A program made the translations under genes and the position numbers. Positions 9,916 to 17,314 of a stretch of DNA of 46,399 bases are shown one piece after another (position 1 is the first letter of the stretch; the number at the start of each line of letters is the position of its first letter). The stretch is from Bacteroidales bacterium. GTDB taxonomy: Bacteria > Bacteroidota > Bacteroidia > Bacteroidales > UBA932. Under the pieces are notes generated by a model. That model did no database searches and was not told the DNA's origin. It saw nothing but the letters and a program-made list of their open reading frames with translations. The DNA is taken from assembly GCA_028704975.1 (NCBI GenBank), contig JAQWEK010000003.1, positions 1 to 46,399 of the forward strand. The letters run 5' to 3'.

Positions 9916-9991
9916 CGATGCTTTCCCGCTAAGAGCCGGCTAAGATGTGATTTTATTGTTTAATTTTACGAGCAATTTTTTAAAAACTTTT

Positions 9992-10420
9992 ATGCAGACC
10001 ACAAAAGAAATAATTCAGGAGAACGGACTTAAGGCTACCCCGCAGAGGATAGCCGTTTACGATACCATGAAAAAGTTAGGGCATGCAAGCGCAGACATGG
10101 TAGGGGAGGTTCTAAAAGAAACGTATCCGACTCTTACAAAAGCCACTGTTTACAACGTCCTGGAATCATTTGATGAGGCGGGGTTACTTGTGAGGCGTTA
10201 CAGTTCAAACAACAAGATGTATTTTGATGTGAACACTTATGATCACGTTCATCTTTATGATACCGCTAAGAGTAGATACAAAGATTATGATGATCCGGGA
10301 CTTGTTGCTCTTGTAAATAAGTACCTCGCCAACAGAAAAATCCCCGGATTTAGCATCAAAAAGATTGATATACAGATTGTCGGAATAGCAGATGCTGAAG
10401 CAAAAAAACAGATGAATTAA
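9992..10420 (+). CDS. perR: Fur-family transcriptional repressor, PerR-like
   Basis: Metal-dependent winged-helix repressor of the Fur family, 142 residues from the ATG at 9992. The ORF extends to a GTG at 9947, but homologous sequence begins with MQTTKEIIQENGLKATPQR. The DNA-recognition helix is in PTLTKATVYNVLESFDEAGL. Candidate regulatory metal ligands are present: His in KKLGHAS, Asp in MYFDVN, the His pair in YDHVHLYD and Asp in YKDYDDPG, the set used by PerR-type sensors. The protein has no cysteine at all, so it lacks the CxxC structural zinc site of classical PerR and Fur. The PerR box upstream and the rubrerythrin gene 88 bp downstream point to peroxide sensing rather than iron uptake. 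The symbol is inferred. Confidence 0.82.
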   Translation: MQTTKEIIQENGLKATPQRIAVYDTMKKLGHASADMVGEVLKETYPTLTKATVYNVLESFDEAGLLVRRYSSNNKMYFDVNTYDHVHLYDTAKSRYKDYDDPGLVALVNKYLANRKIPGFSIKKIDIQIVGIADAEAKKQMN

Positions 10421-10508
10421 TTTGACGGACCGGGAGAACTCCCTGTTTTTCTGATTAAAAATCTGTCGAGATATAGAACATTGTATTTTTAAATAAGGAT
10501 TTAAGATT

Positions 10509-11087
10509 ATGGGAAAAAATTTGAAAGGATCAAAGACTGAAAAGAATCTTTTGATTTCATTTGCCGGTGAGTCTCAGGCGAGAAACAGGTACACTTTTTT
10601 TGCAAGTATTGCAAAGAAAGAGGGTTTTGAACAAATCTCTGCAATCTTTACGGAGACTGCGGATCAGGAGAAAGAACATGCCAAGAAATTTTTCAAATAT
10701 TTGGAGGGCGGAGAGGTTGAGATTACCGCCTCTTATCCTGCCGGTATTATTGGAACAACTGCTCAGAATCTTGAGGCTGCGGCTGCAGGTGAGCACGACG
10801 AGTGGAGTCATATTTATCCTTTGTTTGCAAAGATTGCAGCGGAGGAGGGGTTTTATGAGATTGCCAATACTTTTGAGAAAGTTGCCCTTGTAGAGGAGCA
10901 GCATGAGAAGAGATACCTTACTCTTTTGGGCAGAGTTAAGGCAGGGAAAGTATTTGAGAGAGATGAAGTTGTAGAGTGGCAGTGCAGAAATTGCGGATTT
11001 GTTTTCACAGGCAAGGAAGCGCCTGAGGAATGCCCTGCATGTAATCATCCTCAGGCTTACTTTGAGGTTAAGAAGAATAATTATTAG
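10509..11087 (+). CDS. rbr: Rubrerythrin
   Basis: Non-haem diiron peroxidase that reduces hydrogen peroxide to water in anaerobes, 192 residues. The N-terminal ferritin-like four-helix domain supplies the diiron ligands (FAGESQARNRY, ETADQEKEHAKKF, AAEEGFYEIANTFEKVA and EEQHEKRY with the ExxH pairs). The C-terminal rubredoxin domain has WQCRNCGFVFTG and ECPACNHPQAYFE, the two CxxC knuckles binding one iron. Full length, both domains intact. It follows the PerR-like gene and shares its direction; a weak GC hairpin around 10428-10450 may partly separate them. A strong terminator follows. Confidence 0.96.
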   Translation: MGKNLKGSKTEKNLLISFAGESQARNRYTFFASIAKKEGFEQISAIFTETADQEKEHAKKFFKYLEGGEVEITASYPAGIIGTTAQNLEAAAAGEHDEWSHIYPLFAKIAAEEGFYEIANTFEKVALVEEQHEKRYLTLLGRVKAGKVFERDEVVEWQCRNCGFVFTGKEAPEECPACNHPQAYFEVKKNNY

Positions 11088-11137
11088 AATCTTAATCCCG
11101 ATAGTTTTTTTGTTGATCTGACGGTTTATTGTTTAAT

Positions 11138-11173
11138 AAAAAAGAGCCGCAGAAAATTCTGCGGCTCTTTTTT
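11138..11173. terminator. Bidirectional intrinsic terminator
   Basis: GAGCCGCAGAA and CTGCGGCTC form a strong stem with an AATT-containing loop, flanked by A- and T-tracts, between the convergent rbr and NigD-like genes. Confidence 0.92.
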
Positions 11174-11209
11174 TCTCGTTTATTCAACGGAACCCTACAT
11201 ATAATTATT

Positions 11210-11965
11210 TTATTTAGCCAGGCTCCATGAAACATTTGCAAAAGCTCCGCCCTTCACAACAGAACTTGTTGTCGGCTGAATTGTCCAGTACTCATATTCT
11301 TCTGAATCAAGCGGAGTATATCTCAAATAAATCCCGCTCTTGCCTTGATTATCCGGCTCATACTCTGAAAGTTTAAAGCAAACGTACCCTGTTGCAAGAG
11401 TGCCTGTCTGTCTGCCGTCTTTGCGGGCATTGTGGCGCAATTCAAGACTTACATAATCCGTTTTTTGCTCTGCGTCAGTCGGATTGTATTTATTATCTTC
11501 CAGACTAATAAGGTGTTGTGCGGTTCCACTGTAATACATCTGAACTTGCATATTCAGATAACCACCTGCAATCCACGCATTTACAATCTTGATTCCATCT
11601 GTGCCCAGCGTATCCTGCGCAGCAGTTGAGACAACTGTGACATCCTTTGTTAGCACATCTTCAATTGCAGTAACCTCCGCATTATAATCATAACCCGATA
11701 CCGCCGTAGATAGAGTGTTGAAATAAACAATTGCTCTTTGTCCCGTAACTGCAGTATATTTAGACAGAACAGAAGAGCTTGGGTTAAAGTAAATCTTCTT
11801 GTTATCATCTGTAAGACCCCAGACAGATTTGTCTGTGTTTACTCTAATTGTAACCAGCGCAAGGTTGCTTCCGCCGTCGTTGTTGTTGTCATTCCATGAG
11901 CACCCTGTAAAAATGATGCTTGCTACAAGCATGACGGCAAGAGATAAAATTTTAGTAATCTTCAT
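11210..11965 (-). CDS. NigD-like lipoprotein
   Basis: Secreted lipoprotein of the NigD family, which is nearly confined to Bacteroidales. The signal peptide ends with a lipobox (ASIIFTGCSW), giving a lipidated Cys at residue 22. The mature protein has an N-terminal OB-like portion (about 35-105, DKSVWGLTDDNKKIYF and YNAEVTAIEDVLTKDV) and a C-terminal beta-sandwich portion starting with DGIKIVNAWIAGGYLNMQVQM, which is the typical boundary of the NigD C-terminal domain. The original NigD belongs to a Bacteroides nig locus of bacteriocin-related naming; the biochemical role is not known. Candidate -7 boxes on the minus strand (CAAATTTA at 12036, CAAAGTTA at 12052 on the plus strand) lie in the divergent region shared with the sigma-factor gene. 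Confidence 0.85.
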   Translation of the reverse strand: MKITKILSLAVMLVASIIFTGCSWNDNNNDGGSNLALVTIRVNTDKSVWGLTDDNKKIYFNPSSSVLSKYTAVTGQRAIVYFNTLSTAVSGYDYNAEVTAIEDVLTKDVTVVSTAAQDTLGTDGIKIVNAWIAGGYLNMQVQMYYSGTAQHLISLEDNKYNPTDAEQKTDYVSLELRHNARKDGRQTGTLATGYVCFKLSEYEPDNQGKSGIYLRYTPLDSEEYEYWTIQPTTSSVVKGGAFANVSWSLAK

Positions 11966-12138
11966 AATATAAATATTTTTAATTTTTTATTCACGATGGT
12001 TTCTCTTTTAAAGTCATGAGTCTTATCTTTGAAACCAAATTTAAAACGCAGCAAAGTTATAAATACTGCATCAAAAATATTTTAATTTTTTTTTGCAGTA
12101 TTTTTTTCACATCGGCGTTTATAGTTCTGAAAGGAGTT

Positions 12139-12699
12139 ATGCAGGAGTTAGAAATTTCCCGGCTTTGCAGGAAAAATGATATTACGGCAAGGAGAGAGCT
12201 TTATAAGCTGTACTCAGGATACCTATTAGGTGTCTGTATGCGATACTTGTCTGATAGAGACATGGCTGAGGATGTGATGCATGACGGTTTTATTAAAATA
12301 TTCAGTTCTTTTGATAAGTTTGAGTGGAGAGGGGACGGCTCTCTAAAGGCATGGTTGACCAGAGTAATGGCAAATCAGGCGCTTGAGTGGCTGAGGAGAA
12401 ATAAAAAGCTTAGCGCCAATGAGGGAGAGGATGTTCTGAATAGAGTGGAAGAACCGGCTGTCGCGGATGTAGAAAAAATTCCCGAATCTGTAATTATGAG
12501 GTTTATAGAGGAATTGCCGGATGGATACAGAGCGGTGTTCAATATGTTTGTGATAGAGGAAAAATCTCATAAGGAAATTGCGGAGGCGCTGGGCATAAAA
12601 GAGAAATCTTCATCATCTCAGCTTCTTAGGGCAAAAAGAATTCTTGCGGATAAAATAGATGACTATTGTAAGAAGAACGGAATTGAAAGGACAATTTAG
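12139..12699 (+). CDS. ECF-type RNA polymerase sigma factor
   Basis: Group 4 (ECF) sigma-70 family factor, 187 residues from the ATG at 12139. The ORF extends upstream to 12016, but that stretch is hydrophobic and unlike any sigma factor, whereas AGGAG stands just before the 12139 ATG. Region 2 covers about residues 10-85 (RRELYKLYSGYLLGVCMRY, then DMAEDVMHDGFIKIFSSFDKFEW for core binding and -10 recognition), and region 4 covers about 115-180 (ELPDGYRAVFNMFVIEEKSHKEIAEALGI). Only 3 bp separate it from the next gene, encoding a membrane-anchored protein with an outer-membrane barrel, which is the expected place for its cognate anti-sigma factor. Confidence 0.9.
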   Translation: MQELEISRLCRKNDITARRELYKLYSGYLLGVCMRYLSDRDMAEDVMHDGFIKIFSSFDKFEWRGDGSLKAWLTRVMANQALEWLRRNKKLSANEGEDVLNRVEEPAVADVEKIPESVIMRFIEELPDGYRAVFNMFVIEEKSHKEIAEALGIKEKSSSSQLLRAKRILADKIDDYCKKNGIERTI

Positions 12700-12702
12700 A
12701 TT

Positions 12703-14133
12703 TTGGTTGTGTTAAAAGATAACGGACATATTAATAATGAAGGGTGGCTTAAGGCTGTGAAGAAATCTGCGGAGGCTTATAATGAGCCTATTGCAGAGGA
12801 TAAGCTGCGCAGTGGATGGGAGCGTTTGGAGAGTGAGATGCTTAAAACAGAGGGAGCGGCGGGTGCTGATGTTACCGGAGCGGACAATTTAAAATCTGCA
12901 GTGCGCAGGAAATTTTCCGGCAGACAAATCATTGCGTGGAGTTCTCTTGCAGTTGCCGCCGCAGTGCTAATAGTGCTTCTTTTTGTTCCTCTTCATAAGA
13001 TTGAAAATAAGAGTAATTTAAATTCCATTGCCCAAAACAATACGGGACAAAACGTTGCAAAGCAAAATAATGCTGTGCAAGACGCAATAAAATCAGATAA
13101 TTCGGTTGCGGTAAATAGAACTGTTACGCAAAATAATACTGCATTACAAACGGCTGTTGCTCAGGAGACTGTAAAGAGTGTATCCAAGAGTGCGGTTGCC
13201 GTAAACCGTACATTTGGCGGTTATTCCGGGGACAGCCGTTATGCAGTTTCTTATGGATTCCAAGTGCGTGTAGGCATTCAACCTCCAAGCAGATTTTTAA
13301 AAGATTCTCCAAGGACAATCAACACGGAGGAGAATAAAACAGAGGTAAAAAATGCCGATGTGAGGAAACCGGGTCGGTCAAGGAATACATTTGAAATAGG
13401 AGAACCAATAAGAGTCTCAAGCAGAGGTAAATGGACTGCAGGCCTTATGGTGAGAAATGCAAACGAAAGGAAAAATAATAATGGTTCGCAGCCATATTAT
13501 GATTGTGCTCCCGTTGACAATAGCACCATGCTCATTCTTGCCCAGTCTTTTATGGTTTCAAAATCTCCGGCAGATTATTCTCATAAGCAGCCTATATCAA
13601 TTGGAGTTACCGTTGAGAGGAAAATGGGGACCGGAGGAAAGTTCTCCGTCGAGAGCGGAATTGTTTACTCGCTTCTAAATTCTGATGTTACGTCCGGAAA
13701 TTATGAATTAAAGCAACATATTCATTATCTGGGTATTCCGGTTGCGGTAAAATGGAATTTTGTAAATGCGGGAAGTTTTACCGTTTATGCAGAAGGCGGC
13801 GGTATGATAGAGAAAAGTATTGCCGGCAGGATGGAAAACAGGGATAATAAAAAACTTAGCACGAGTCATTTCAATGTAAAAGGATTTCAGTTCTCTCTTG
13901 CCGCCGACGCCGGTGTTGAGTATAAGATTTATAAGAATGTAGGAATCTATGTTCAACCGGGTGTCTCATACTACTTTAAGCCTGCAAAATTGGGGACATT
14001 TTATATAAATGAGAGCAGTAGCGGCTCCGTTGGAAACACATCCGGATACGGTCGCGAATTTGAACTGGAGAATATTCATACAAACAATCGCATGGGACTT
14101 TCTCTTCAGGCGGGCATAAGATTGAGCTACTAA
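12703..14133 (+). CDS. Candidate dual membrane-spanning anti-sigma factor (cytosolic domain, TM, periplasmic linker, beta-barrel)
   Basis: 476-residue protein with an unusual trans-envelope plan. Residues 1-78 are charged and soluble and would lie in the cytoplasm; 79-101 (IIAWSSLAVAAAVLIVLLFV) form one inner-membrane helix; about 102-235 are a low-complexity N/Q/T/V/K-rich periplasmic linker; about 240-476 are alternating amphipathic strands (GKWTAGLMVRN, ISIGVTVERKMG, KFSVESGIVYSLL, FTVYAEGGGMIEKS, FSLAADAGVEYKI, VGIYVQPGVSYYF) ending in GLSLQAGIRLSY with a terminal aromatic, as in porin-like outer-membrane barrels. This matches the Dma (dual membrane-spanning anti-sigma) architecture reported in Bacteroides. 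Its partner would be the sigma factor 3 bp upstream. The start is TTG (12703) or GTG (12709); no in-frame ATG precedes the linker-proximal region. The anti-sigma role is inferred from architecture and position. Confidence 0.75.
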   Translation: MVVLKDNGHINNEGWLKAVKKSAEAYNEPIAEDKLRSGWERLESEMLKTEGAAGADVTGADNLKSAVRRKFSGRQIIAWSSLAVAAAVLIVLLFVPLHKIENKSNLNSIAQNNTGQNVAKQNNAVQDAIKSDNSVAVNRTVTQNNTALQTAVAQETVKSVSKSAVAVNRTFGGYSGDSRYAVSYGFQVRVGIQPPSRFLKDSPRTINTEENKTEVKNADVRKPGRSRNTFEIGEPIRVSSRGKWTAGLMVRNANERKNNNGSQPYYDCAPVDNSTMLILAQSFMVSKSPADYSHKQPISIGVTVERKMGTGGKFSVESGIVYSLLNSDVTSGNYELKQHIHYLGIPVAVKWNFVNAGSFTVYAEGGGMIEKSIAGRMENRDNKKLSTSHFNVKGFQFSLAADAGVEYKIYKNVGIYVQPGVSYYFKPAKLGTFYINESSSGSVGNTSGYGREFELENIHTNNRMGLSLQAGIRLSY

Positions 14134-14142
14134 ATTTCTGAT

Positions 14143-14150
14143 TATATTTG
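14143..14150 (+). promoter_or_regulatory. -7 box TATATTTG
   Basis: An exact TAnnTTTG match whose last base is only 5 nt before the ATG at 14156, predicting a leaderless transcript. It begins 10 bp after the preceding stop codon. Confidence 0.6.
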
Positions 14151-14155
14151 CGGCC

Positions 14156-15103
14156 ATGACGGAAAAACCTTCAATTGGTCGTAGGCTTTGGGTGTGTGTT
14201 AAGGATGTTATTCCAAGCGCAAAAAAAACCGCAATATGGATTGTGGAAATTACTGCAACCATATCTGCGGTAATTTTTATTCTGCGCGCCGTTAATGTTA
14301 TTCCATTGATATCTAATGCGGTAAGTCCTGTGATGAAATTTGTGGGACTTCCGGGAGAGGCTTCCCTTGCTTATGTAAGCGGCTATTTTGTAAACGTTTA
14401 TTCTGCCATTGCCGCAGCAGTAACATTGGGACTGACACGTAGAAGCATGACAATTCTTGCCGTTATGGCGATGTGTTCCCACAGCATGATTGTGGAGACG
14501 GCGGTGCAGAAAAAGACAGGTTCTTCCGCAATAAGAATGGTAATTGTCAGAACATTAAGCGGAATAGTTCTGGCTTCTTTACTTAATCTAATATTGCCGG
14601 AAGAGGCCGCGGCAGCTACGGGTTCGGCCGCTGTTGCAAACCCTCCGTTTTGGATAATGTTCAAGGAATGGATAATATCTCTTTTAAAACTTTGTATTAA
14701 AATTATTATTTTGATATTTCTGTTATCCGTTCTGCAAAAGATACTTAAGGAGTTTGGTGTTATAAATGTAATCTCAAAATTTCTCAACTGGCCGCTTAAA
14801 TTTTTCGGACTCTCTCCAAATACATCTTTTCTTTGGATTGTCTCTAATACGCTGGGGCTTGCCTATGGTGCTGCCGTAATGTTTCAGGAGAAGGAAAGCG
14901 GGCATGTATCCCAAAGAGAAATACAATTGCTGAATTCCCATATTGCCATATCTCACAGCAACTTGGAGGATCTTATACTCTTTACGTCTGTTGGAGGAAT
15001 TTGGTGGATAATACTGCTTACGCGCTGGGCGGGTTCTTTTTTGCTGGTATGGGAGGAGCGACTGGAATTTTATTTAAGGGATCGCCGGAGAGCGGCCGCT
15101 TGA
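14156..15103 (+). CDS. Nucleoside recognition (Gate) domain membrane protein
   Basis: Polytopic inner-membrane protein of 315 residues containing two Gate-type (nucleoside recognition, PF07670) halves. The first spans about residues 25-150 (AIWIVEITATISAVIFILRA, LPGEASLAYVSGYFVNVYSA, MAMCSHSMIVETAV); the second about 165-300 (KLCIKIIILIFLLSVLQKIL, GLSPNTSFLWIVSNTLGLAYG, LLNSHIAISHSNLEDLILF). This resembles spore-maturation SpmA/B-like and YjiH-like proteins, found also in non-sporulating bacteria, where the transported substrate is unknown. It has its own promoter box and is followed by trxB, which also has its own box, so an operon is not required. Confidence 0.75.
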   Translation: MTEKPSIGRRLWVCVKDVIPSAKKTAIWIVEITATISAVIFILRAVNVIPLISNAVSPVMKFVGLPGEASLAYVSGYFVNVYSAIAAAVTLGLTRRSMTILAVMAMCSHSMIVETAVQKKTGSSAIRMVIVRTLSGIVLASLLNLILPEEAAAATGSAAVANPPFWIMFKEWIISLLKLCIKIIILIFLLSVLQKILKEFGVINVISKFLNWPLKFFGLSPNTSFLWIVSNTLGLAYGAAVMFQEKESGHVSQREIQLLNSHIAISHSNLEDLILFTSVGGIWWIILLTRWAGSFLLVWEERLEFYLRDRRRAAA

Positions 15104-15121
15104 TTTTCTCTATGATTTTAT

Positions 15122-15129
15122 TAAATTTG
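15122..15129 (+). promoter_or_regulatory. -7 box TAAATTTG for trxB
   Basis: An exact TAnnTTTG match 52 nt before the preferred trxB ATG at 15182. The TTG at 15137 used by the ORF track is only 7 nt from the box. Confidence 0.5.
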
Positions 15130-15181
15130 CAGCCCGTTGCCGGAGGATAAAGTTGTCCTTTGCGCAGGGGATAGAAATTGT

Positions 15182-16108
15182 ATGGATATAGTTAAATGTT
15201 TAATAGCGGGTAGCGGCCCGGCAGGGTATACGGCGGCAATTTATGCGGCGCGTGCCAATCTTAATCCGGTGATATACAGCGGTATGGAGCTTGGGGGGCA
15301 ACTGACTACAACAACTACGGTAGATAATTTTCCCGGATTTCCGGATGGAATAGATGGCGGAGAGCTTGTTGCAAGAATGAAACGGCAGGCGGAACGCTTT
15401 GGCGTTGAGGTCCGCAGCGGTGTCATAACTAAAACAGACTTTTCAAAGAGACCCTTTAAATTAACAATAGATTCTAAGGATGAGGTGCTTGCAGACACTG
15501 TCATCATAGCGACAGGCGCCTCTGCAAAATATCTTAACATCCCCGGAGAGCAAAAATTCCGCGGTGGCGGGGTGAGCGCATGTGCAACTTGTGACGGCTT
15601 TTTCTACAAAAACAAAGAGGTAGCAGTAGTAGGAGGCGGAGATACGGCATGTGAGGAGGCGGTCTATCTGTCGGGAATATGCAAGAAAGTTTCTATGATT
15701 GTACGAAGGGATGTGTTTAGGGCGTCCAAGGCAATGCAGGATAGAGTTGCATCAAAGAGCAATATTGAGGTTTTGTGGCAGTGCGAGCCTTTGGAAGTTG
15801 TTGGAGATGAGAGCGGTGTAACAGGAATAAAAATTAAAGATGTAAAAGCCGGTGCGGAGAGAATAGTTCCGGTTTGGGGGGTATTTTTGGCTGTAGGGCA
15901 TCATCCTAATTCTGAGGTGTTTAAACCTTGGATTAATATGGATGCCGAGGGGTATGTAATCACAGAGCCGGGGAGTTCAAAGACAAACGTTCCCGGAGTT
16001 TTTGCGGCGGGAGATGTTGCAGATTTGCATTATAAGCAGGCTATTACAGCGGCTGCGGCAGGGTGCAAGGCTGCGATTGAGGTTGACAAATTCCTGCAGG
16101 AAGTATAA
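15182..16108 (+). CDS. trxB: Thioredoxin-disulfide reductase
   Basis: FAD- and NADPH-dependent reductase that recycles oxidised thioredoxin, 308 residues from the ATG at 15182. The ORF reaches back to a TTG at 15137, but homologous sequence starts with MDIVKCLIAGSGPAGYTAA, whose GxGxxG binds FAD. The redox-active pair is SACATCDGFF (CATC), the NADPH-binding loop is VAVVGGGDTACEEAVYL, and the second FAD motif is GVFAAGDVADLHYKQAITA. All landmarks of the low-molecular-weight bacterial TrxB are intact. In anaerobes TrxB supports peroxidase and disulfide repair systems, which fits the rubrerythrin pair a few kilobases upstream. Confidence 0.95.
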   Translation: MDIVKCLIAGSGPAGYTAAIYAARANLNPVIYSGMELGGQLTTTTTVDNFPGFPDGIDGGELVARMKRQAERFGVEVRSGVITKTDFSKRPFKLTIDSKDEVLADTVIIATGASAKYLNIPGEQKFRGGGVSACATCDGFFYKNKEVAVVGGGDTACEEAVYLSGICKKVSMIVRRDVFRASKAMQDRVASKSNIEVLWQCEPLEVVGDESGVTGIKIKDVKAGAERIVPVWGVFLAVGHHPNSEVFKPWINMDAEGYVITEPGSSKTNVPGVFAAGDVADLHYKQAITAAAAGCKAAIEVDKFLQEV

Positions 16109-16116
16109 TTTGGCTT

Positions 16117-16124
16117 TATATTTG
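16117..16124 (+). promoter_or_regulatory. -7 box TATATTTG before bamD
   Basis: An exact TAnnTTTG match right after the trxB stop, 20 nt before the ATG at 16145. It probably drives the bamD-rpoZ-recN run. Confidence 0.6.
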
Positions 16125-16144
16125 CCTATGTCTTGGCATTCAAA

Positions 16145-17314
16145 ATGGGAAACATGAAAAATCTAAAATTATTGGCGGCGCTGTTACTTGTGGTTTTAGC
16201 CGCGGGGGGTTGTAAAAACTATTATGACGCGTTGCTAAAGAGCGACGATGTTGACCTTAAGTTCAAGGCGGGCATTGACTATTACAATAAGGGCAAATTC
16301 AGGAAATCTGCTGAATTGTTTGAGAGTCTGGTACTTCCTTCTCAAGGTACTCCAAAAGAGGATTCGGTCCAGTACTACAATGCCATGAGCAATTACAGGT
16401 ACGGTGATTATACAACTGCAGAACAGAACTTTGCAAAGTTTTTGGAAGTGTTTCCGAGAAGTCCGTTTACGGAAGAGTCAAAATTTTTGAGAATCAAATG
16501 TTTGTATGAGGCTACATACCGCTGGGAGTTGGATCAGACTCCTACCCAAAAAGCCATGTCAACCATTACAACATTTATGTATGAACATCCAGAGAGCCAG
16601 TATTATAATATTTGTAAGGCAATGATGGCTGAGTTTCAGGAGCGTCTGGACAGAAAAAGTTTTGAAGCGGCCAAGCTGTATTATAACATGCAGGATTACA
16701 AAGCTGCCCATTATGCTCTTAAGGGGGTTTTAAAAGATAATTCAAATAACCAATACAGAGAGCAGGTTCTCTACTATACTGCAATGTCTTCTTATAAGTT
16801 TGCACAGATGAGTGTGCCTGAGAAACAGAAGGAGAGGTATATGACTTATGTTGACGATTATTATAACTTTGTAAGCGAGTATCCGGATGTTGTTGAGAGA
16901 AAAGTGTTGGATGATAATTTTGTAAAGGCGCGTAAAATTGCAGGATTAAAAGAGGATGACTCTACGCTGGTTGCAAAAACACAAAGTGCGGAGAATAAAG
17001 AAGTTGAAGGAGTTGTACCTAAGACAAAAGTAAAAATCAAAGCAGACCGCAGGAATGCAAAACAAGCTATCAAAGATGCAAAGAAGGCTGTAAGAATAGA
17101 GGAGTCAAAAAATAGCGTAGCTTTAGGAGTCTCTGATGATAAGGCACTTGTAAAGCAAAGAAAAGCGGAACAAAGAAAAATTGATAAGGAGAACAGAGAT
17201 GATGTAAAGGCTGCAAAAAAGATTGAGAGAGAGGAGAAGGCAGCTGCAAAAAAAGCAGCAAAAGAGAAAGCTGCCGCAGAGAAAACACCTGCCGCAGAGA
17301 AAAAAACCGAATAA
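16145..17314 (+). CDS. bamD: Outer membrane assembly lipoprotein BamD
   Basis: TPR lipoprotein of the beta-barrel assembly machinery, anchored to the inner leaflet of the outer membrane and partner of BamA, whose gene lies 11 kb downstream. The ORF track starts at a TTG (16133); ATG codons at 16145 and 16154 precede the lipoprotein signal KLLAALLLVVLAAGGCKN. TPR-like repeats follow (GIDYYNKGKFRKSAELFESL, SNYRYGDYTTAEQNFAKFL, LYYNMQDYKAAHYALKGVL) over about residues 35-250. The C-terminal portion of roughly 110 residues is an unusual Lys/Ala/Glu/Arg-rich tail (for example EREEKAAAKKAAKEKAAAE), longer than in enterobacterial BamD and likely extended or coiled. rpoZ follows 18 bp later. Confidence 0.88.
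   Translation: MGNMKNLKLLAALLLVVLAAGGCKNYYDALLKSDDVDLKFKAGIDYYNKGKFRKSAELFESLVLPSQGTPKEDSVQYYNAMSNYRYGDYTTAEQNFAKFLEVFPRSPFTEESKFLRIKCLYEATYRWELDQTPTQKAMSTITTFMYEHPESQYYNICKAMMAEFQERLDRKSFEAAKLYYNMQDYKAAHYALKGVLKDNSNNQYREQVLYYTAMSSYKFAQMSVPEKQKERYMTYVDDYYNFVSEYPDVVERKVLDDNFVKARKIAGLKEDDSTLVAKTQSAENKEVEGVVPKTKVKIKADRRNAKQAIKDAKKAVRIEESKNSVALGVSDDKALVKQRKAEQRKIDKENRDDVKAAKKIEREEKAAAKKAAKEKAAAEKTPAAEKKTE

Follow-up and report, generated by a model that had tools for sequence, protein, structure and literature searches.

The sigma/anti-sigma gene pair

The window, by which we mean the whole stretch of 46,399 nucleotides that was analyzed, carries an ECF sigma factor gene with the gene for its predicted anti-sigma factor adjoining it, as the Dma/Reo class requires; on the other side of the sigma gene, a gene for a NigD-family lipoprotein points the opposite way (Table 1). 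Domain searches identified regions 2 and 4 in the sigma factor (Sigma70_r2, 1.1e-14; Sigma70_r4_2, 3e-14), and the longest open reading frame for this gene begins at 12016, upstream of the sigma promoter. Both reading frames of the first-pass annotation were found in place, with one correction: the 3-bp gap that it gave between the genes, counted from a TTG start at 12703, is probably 9 bp. The TTG lies two codons 5' of a GTG at 12709. Since the ortholog at locus L032 has GTG-TTA-AAA-GAT in common with the window and lacks the TTG start, translation from GTG 12709 is most likely, which would put the start 9 bp after the sigma stop codon and yield 474 residues.

Table 1. Features of the locus and predicted target genes elsewhere in the same genome
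Feature	Position	Strand	Basis
NigD1/NigD2-family lipoprotein gene, divergent from sigma	11210..11965	-	PF17415, PF12667, NF051862
Promoter toward nigD, TGCAGTATTT-N11-GCGTTT, identical to that of the operon	12044..12070	-	exact match
ECF-type promoter of the sigma/anti-sigma operon, TGCAGTATTT-N11-GCGTTT	12094..12120	+	exact match
ECF sigma factor, EcfO/Das type, 186 aa	12139..12699	+	Sigma70_r2/r4_2; 31-row clade with P. vulgatus EcfO
Dma/Reo-type anti-sigma factor, 474 aa	12709..14133	+	domains, model, GTG start common to L032
N-terminal cytosolic segment, two helices, predicted sigma-binding domain	12709..12921	+	structure model
Inner-membrane helix, residues 74-93	12922..12981	+	model and hydrophobicity; basic RRKFSGR before helix
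Asn/Ser-rich disordered periplasmic tether, residues 95-240	12985..13422	+	model, ortholog identity
C-terminal 8-stranded OmpA/OmpW-type barrel, residues 244-476	13432..14130	+	PF13568, model, Foldseek, C-terminus
Predicted target: PF13568 outer-membrane protein	C27		exact promoter site
Predicted target: small probable outer-membrane protein, no Pfam match	C129		exact promoter site
Predicted target: WecE-type aminotransferase (wecE), wecF-like gene next	C151:4958-6302		exact promoter site

Our model predicts that a single anti-sigma chain starts in the cytoplasm and reaches the outer membrane. AlphaFold2, run on an alignment of 69 sequences, placed two N-terminal helices at residues 12-25 and 32-51, the second including a nearly invariant Trp39 (TTG-based numbering). 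The chain has a single strongly hydrophobic helix at 76-94, modeled at 74-93, with RRKFSGR on its cytosolic side. The tether that follows (~145 residues) was mostly modeled at pLDDT <50. The first-pass annotation had proposed this order of cytosolic segment, one inner-membrane helix, long linker and C-terminal barrel, and had suggested structure prediction of residues 240-476 as a check; domains, AlphaFold2 and Foldseek agree on the layout, and the model contains an 8-stranded barrel at residues 291-420 with pLDDT 88-96. PF13568 (OMP_b-brl_2) matches residues 290-412 at 34.6 bits against a cut-off of 27, and Foldseek matched the model to OmpA, OmpW, and NspA; a sequence search of the PDB with the anti-sigma factor returned no match. 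The protein ends in QAGIRLSY, which we take to fit the beta-signal recognized by BAM. Four features are described for Dma proteins, namely an N-terminal anti-sigma domain, a transmembrane helix, a long disordered tether, and a C-terminal barrel (PMC13088901). All of them, the first as a predicted sigma-binding domain, are present here in sequence or model along with the adjacent sigma gene, which supports the earlier assignment to the Dma class.

Relatives and divergence

The architecture is not unique to the window pair; its class is Dma/Das and EcfO/Reo. A sigma gene directly 5' and the helix-tether-barrel layout were found in 36/36 relatives from whole genomes and in 79/79 from named Bacteroidales contigs, the latter collected in a scan that used an 8-row alignment subset as query; this gives 115 Bacteroidales relatives, with a few contigs common to both sets. 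Because every relative that was fetched has the same layout, a chance arrangement of genes was ruled out.

Sequence conservation is more restricted. Although the anti-sigma factor has matches in 65 of 101 related genomes (the window's own genome counted), most match mainly the barrel, and a full-length ortholog was found only in G034 besides the window's genome, at 58% identity. Against Bacteroidaceae members, identity was only ~20-28%. Divergence from the closest ortholog is uneven along the chain, with 58% identity in the N-terminal segment, 30% in the tether, and 73% in the barrel. In the surrounding region (9947-17311), the gene order of Fur-like, rubrerythrin, nigD, sigma, anti-sigma, Gate-domain, thioredoxin-reductase, and YfiO-like genes is kept in G034, and in G009 without an intact nigD match. 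Most of these neighbors are 87-92% identical between the window and G034, followed by sigma (82%), the Fur-like gene (81%), NigD (70%), and the anti-sigma factor (54%), which is the fastest-changing gene of the region in this comparison.

In a tree of 106 sigma factors, the window's sigma and that of L032 fell in a 31-row clade of moderate support (86/87), together with a Phocaeicola/Bacteroides set that includes locus L123 of P. vulgatus ATCC 8482. Within this clade, the window sigma, its ortholog, and Bacteroidaceae sigmas formed a six-row subset (88/95). The EcfO clade and the Dma-type neighbor lend indirect support to placing the sigma factor in the ECF21 family. The EcfO type occurs in only 5 of 39 genomes of the window's genus, where the other Das/Dma type is widespread.

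The divergent neighbor is informative as well. The nigD gene, the sole NigD_C match in its genome, matched PF17415 (6.2e-22), PF12667 (2.2e-9), and the NCBIfam family NF051862 BT4005_BT4719 (157.7 bits, cut-off 60). At L123 of P. vulgatus ATCC 8482 the order is likewise nigD (minus strand), sigma, anti-sigma, which is matched by the consecutive genes M0N98_03762 (nigD), 03761 (ecfO), and 03760 (reo) of P. vulgatus CL10 (PMC9308784, PMC13114119); the second full-length Dma pair of ATCC 8482 has no adjoining nigD. Expression of M0N98_03762 needs EcfO (PMC13114119), and NigD1 (bt_4005) is required for the hypervesiculation of a dma1 mutant (PMC13088901). Because nigD adjoins the window pair and has a promoter in common with it, the pair points to the EcfO/Das1 type. 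NigD-like genes also occur in other arrangements. At six Cryptobacteroides-type Das/Dma loci of another clade (L088, L089, L092, L093, L127, and L131) such a gene lies upstream in the same direction as sigma, and at L198 (G009:C24) the divergent gene looks truncated, a 65-aa reading frame behind a one-mismatch promoter.

Promoter and predicted regulon

Both divergent directions carry TGCAGTATTT-N12-CRTTT, in each case as an exact TGCAGTATTT-N11-GCGTTT; for the latter, chance would supply only ~0.1 matches in the window with as many as 2 mismatches allowed. The nigD-facing site is conserved in L032, G022, and G015, and has a variant form in P. vulgatus. In G022 and G015, a NigD-like lipoprotein gene is again divergent and exact sites lie on both strands. 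Across the tree, [AT]GCAG[TC]A-N15-CRTTW was found upstream of 27 of the 31 clade sigmas and 0 of the 75 others (Fisher p=2.7e-21, a value that overstates the evidence because related sequences are not independent), and three of the four clade sigmas that lack the full pattern have a recognizable -35.

P. vulgatus served as a positive control. The shorter pattern had only two exact matches there, one being the promoter of ecfO and the other lying at a lipoprotein gene whose NigD_C match is below threshold. Of the 5 NigD_C genes of ATCC 8482, 3 carry the site or a variant of it, with a weak -10 element in one of the three. The EcfO regulon as published contains the same number of nigD genes; their locus tags were paired with these genes by count and synteny, not by identifiers. 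When the patterns were reversed, the shorter one gave 3-4 matches per genome and the longer one gave none. Several one-mismatch matches are probably chance, and they were counted as regulon evidence only if found in two species. An EcfO recognition motif has been reported from B. fragilis (cited in PMC7366714), and the promoter as such may therefore be known already.

Three further exact sites in the window's genome precede genes on contigs C27, C129, and C151 (Table 1). The site at wecE recurs in the sister species G034, upstream of the same gene and with a diverged spacer, and a WecF-like gene again follows (G034:C1:977547-980265). The pathway lengthens O-antigen in P. vulgatus (PMC9308784), and a surface-glycan target would thus be coherent. 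The first-pass annotation had called the regulon unknown; shared promoters and the adjacent nigD now predict part of it, at the level of sequence. A separate candidate target, the gene for a Trp/Tyr/Pro-rich probable surface lipoprotein (L201 and L205, in G022 and G015), carries an EcfO-type site with one mismatch in each of these species.

The genome holds a second Das/Dma sigma/anti-sigma pair, on C91 (locus L031:5743-7609), which belongs to another clade. Upstream of 10/11 sigmas in the clade of that pair we found TTGCAAC-N15-GCATC, which occurs upstream of 0/75 sigmas elsewhere and is absent upstream of the window's sigma. Given these different promoters, the window pair and the second pair seem to form circuits insulated from each other.

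Proposed mechanism and alternatives

We consider it very likely that the window pair is an envelope-stress switch of the EcfO-Reo/Das1-Dma1 type that operates as proposed here. In the resting cell, the anti-sigma factor would hold the ECF sigma factor through its two-helix N-terminal segment, presumably by direct binding. One helix would anchor the anti-sigma factor in the inner membrane, and the flexible tether would link it to the 8-stranded barrel in the outer membrane. Outer-membrane damage or, as a putative signal, failed barrel assembly would inactivate the anti-sigma factor, most likely through regulated proteolysis, and set sigma free. Free sigma would transcribe from TGCAGTATTT-N12-CRTTT promoters, including that of its own operon, creating positive feedback. 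Further predicted targets would be the divergent nigD, small outer-membrane proteins, and the wecE-wecF-like surface-glycan operon, and the outcome would be an altered cell surface. We regard outer-membrane damage or failed barrel assembly as the most likely trigger because the inducers of EcfO-Reo in P. vulgatus are BcpT and the BamA inhibitor bacteroidetocin A (PMC13114119, PMC9308784). Sigma-dependent expression of nigD, induction by outer-membrane-active toxins, and effects on outer membrane vesicles (OMV) and O-antigen are known from published homologs, and homology was not taken to imply an OMV role for the window pair. The analysis itself shows the order of the genes, the domain layout, a predicted barrel fold, the clade to which the sigma factor belongs, and the promoter with its restriction to that clade.

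Sequestration of the sigma factor is compatible with a structure model in which sigma and the anti-sigma N-terminus were predicted as one chain by translating through the single in-frame TAG. This artificial fusion, built from mostly unpaired alignment rows, reached pLDDT 85.8 and pTM 0.79, with pLDDT 90-96 over most of both anti-sigma helices. The modeled sigma resembles the complexes SigW-RsiW (TM 0.61) and CnrH-CnrY (0.55) more than RNA polymerase-bound sigmas (at most 0.43). The model agrees with sequestration but is not proof of it.

What the barrel contributes could be read in other ways. The authors who described Dma2 hypothesized that the barrel is a receptor for a ligand or glycan, in which case a signal from the surface would pass through the tether to release sigma; they proposed glycan sensing, and loss of Dma2 alters polysaccharide utilization loci (PUL) (PMC13088901). 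For the window pair we find this unlikely, given that its sigma falls in the EcfO clade, where the inducers of the P. vulgatus member are BcpT and bacteroidetocin A, that is, envelope damage (PMC13114119, PMC9308784), and that the exact promoter matches examined included no PUL genes. Another reading, which we judge less probable still, is that the chain is cleaved in the tether and that the barrel acts as a surface protein in its own right, merely encoded by the same gene. A long, disordered tether that is so much less conserved than the barrel (30% versus 73%) is a plausible protease target; yet its length from the end of the membrane helix to the start of the barrel stays within limits (median 197 residues over 102 members, range 144-241), and the barrel is split from the anchor in none of the relatives fetched, which suggests that the physical link matters.

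Sigma/anti-sigma pairs of the PUL or iron (FecR-like) type, which work with a separate TonB-dependent receptor, are common in Bacteroidales, and a conventional pair of this kind was considered. Domain content contradicts it: the anti-sigma factor has no FecR domain, the characterized flanking genes include no SusC/TonB-dependent receptor, and an OmpA-sized barrel is fused to the anti-sigma factor itself. This candidate was rejected as highly improbable.

Within the envelope-stress reading, a more specific version can be offered tentatively, and taken jointly its parts are somewhat doubtful. The anti-sigma factor may be a self-testing probe, such that failed assembly of its own barrel, as a BAM substrate, and not a ligand, would free sigma. 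The response may remodel surface glycan through the wecE-wecF-like operon together with NigD, and the two Das/Dma paralogs may work in parallel on promoters that exclude each other, TGCAGTATTT-N12-CRTTT for one and TTGCAAC-N15-GCATC for the other.

Comparison with known systems and implications

The closest parallel is EcfO-Reo of P. vulgatus (M0N98_03761-03760), a system reportedly first described in B. fragilis. The two have in common a NigD gene alongside (divergent at L123 of ATCC 8482), a helix-tether-barrel anti-sigma factor, the same sigma clade, and a promoter that agrees in its -35 core, its spacing, and its -10. They differ in that the window's anti-sigma factor has the low identity to Bacteroidaceae members given above, its predicted regulon includes the wecE-wecF-like operon, and the EcfO type is rare in its genus. 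Das1-Dma1 with NigD1 (BT_4005) of Bacteroides thetaiotaomicron (Pardue 2024, as described in PMC13088901) is alike by that description in domain layout, and the window's NigD falls in the NCBIfam family named for BT4005 and BT4719. Das2-Dma2 (BT_1559-BT_1558) and Dma3 of the same species share the four-part anti-sigma factor, with a sigma domain fused in Dma3. However, loss of Dma2 does not induce nigD1 and BT_1557 shares an operon with dma2, whereas the window pair has nigD adjoining. RseA, RsiW, and CnrY likewise combine an N-terminal cytosolic sigma-binding segment, predicted in our case, with one inner-membrane helix, but they end in a periplasmic domain, whereas the window chain continues into an outer-membrane barrel.

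The Dma and EcfO-Reo class is thus already published. New here are a member in a genus of uncultured genomes, the regulon predicted for it, the promoter's clade specificity, and a second circuit that looks insulated. The host is a little-studied gut bacterium, and the type of switch is a known two-gene switch of Bacteroidales. Das/Dma pairs link the outer surface to transcription in this order and bear on vesiculation, defense against toxins, and fitness in the gut. Applicable across a clade, the promoter and predicted regulon open the way to direct tests of which genes respond, of insulation between the paralogs, and of barrel assembly as the signal.
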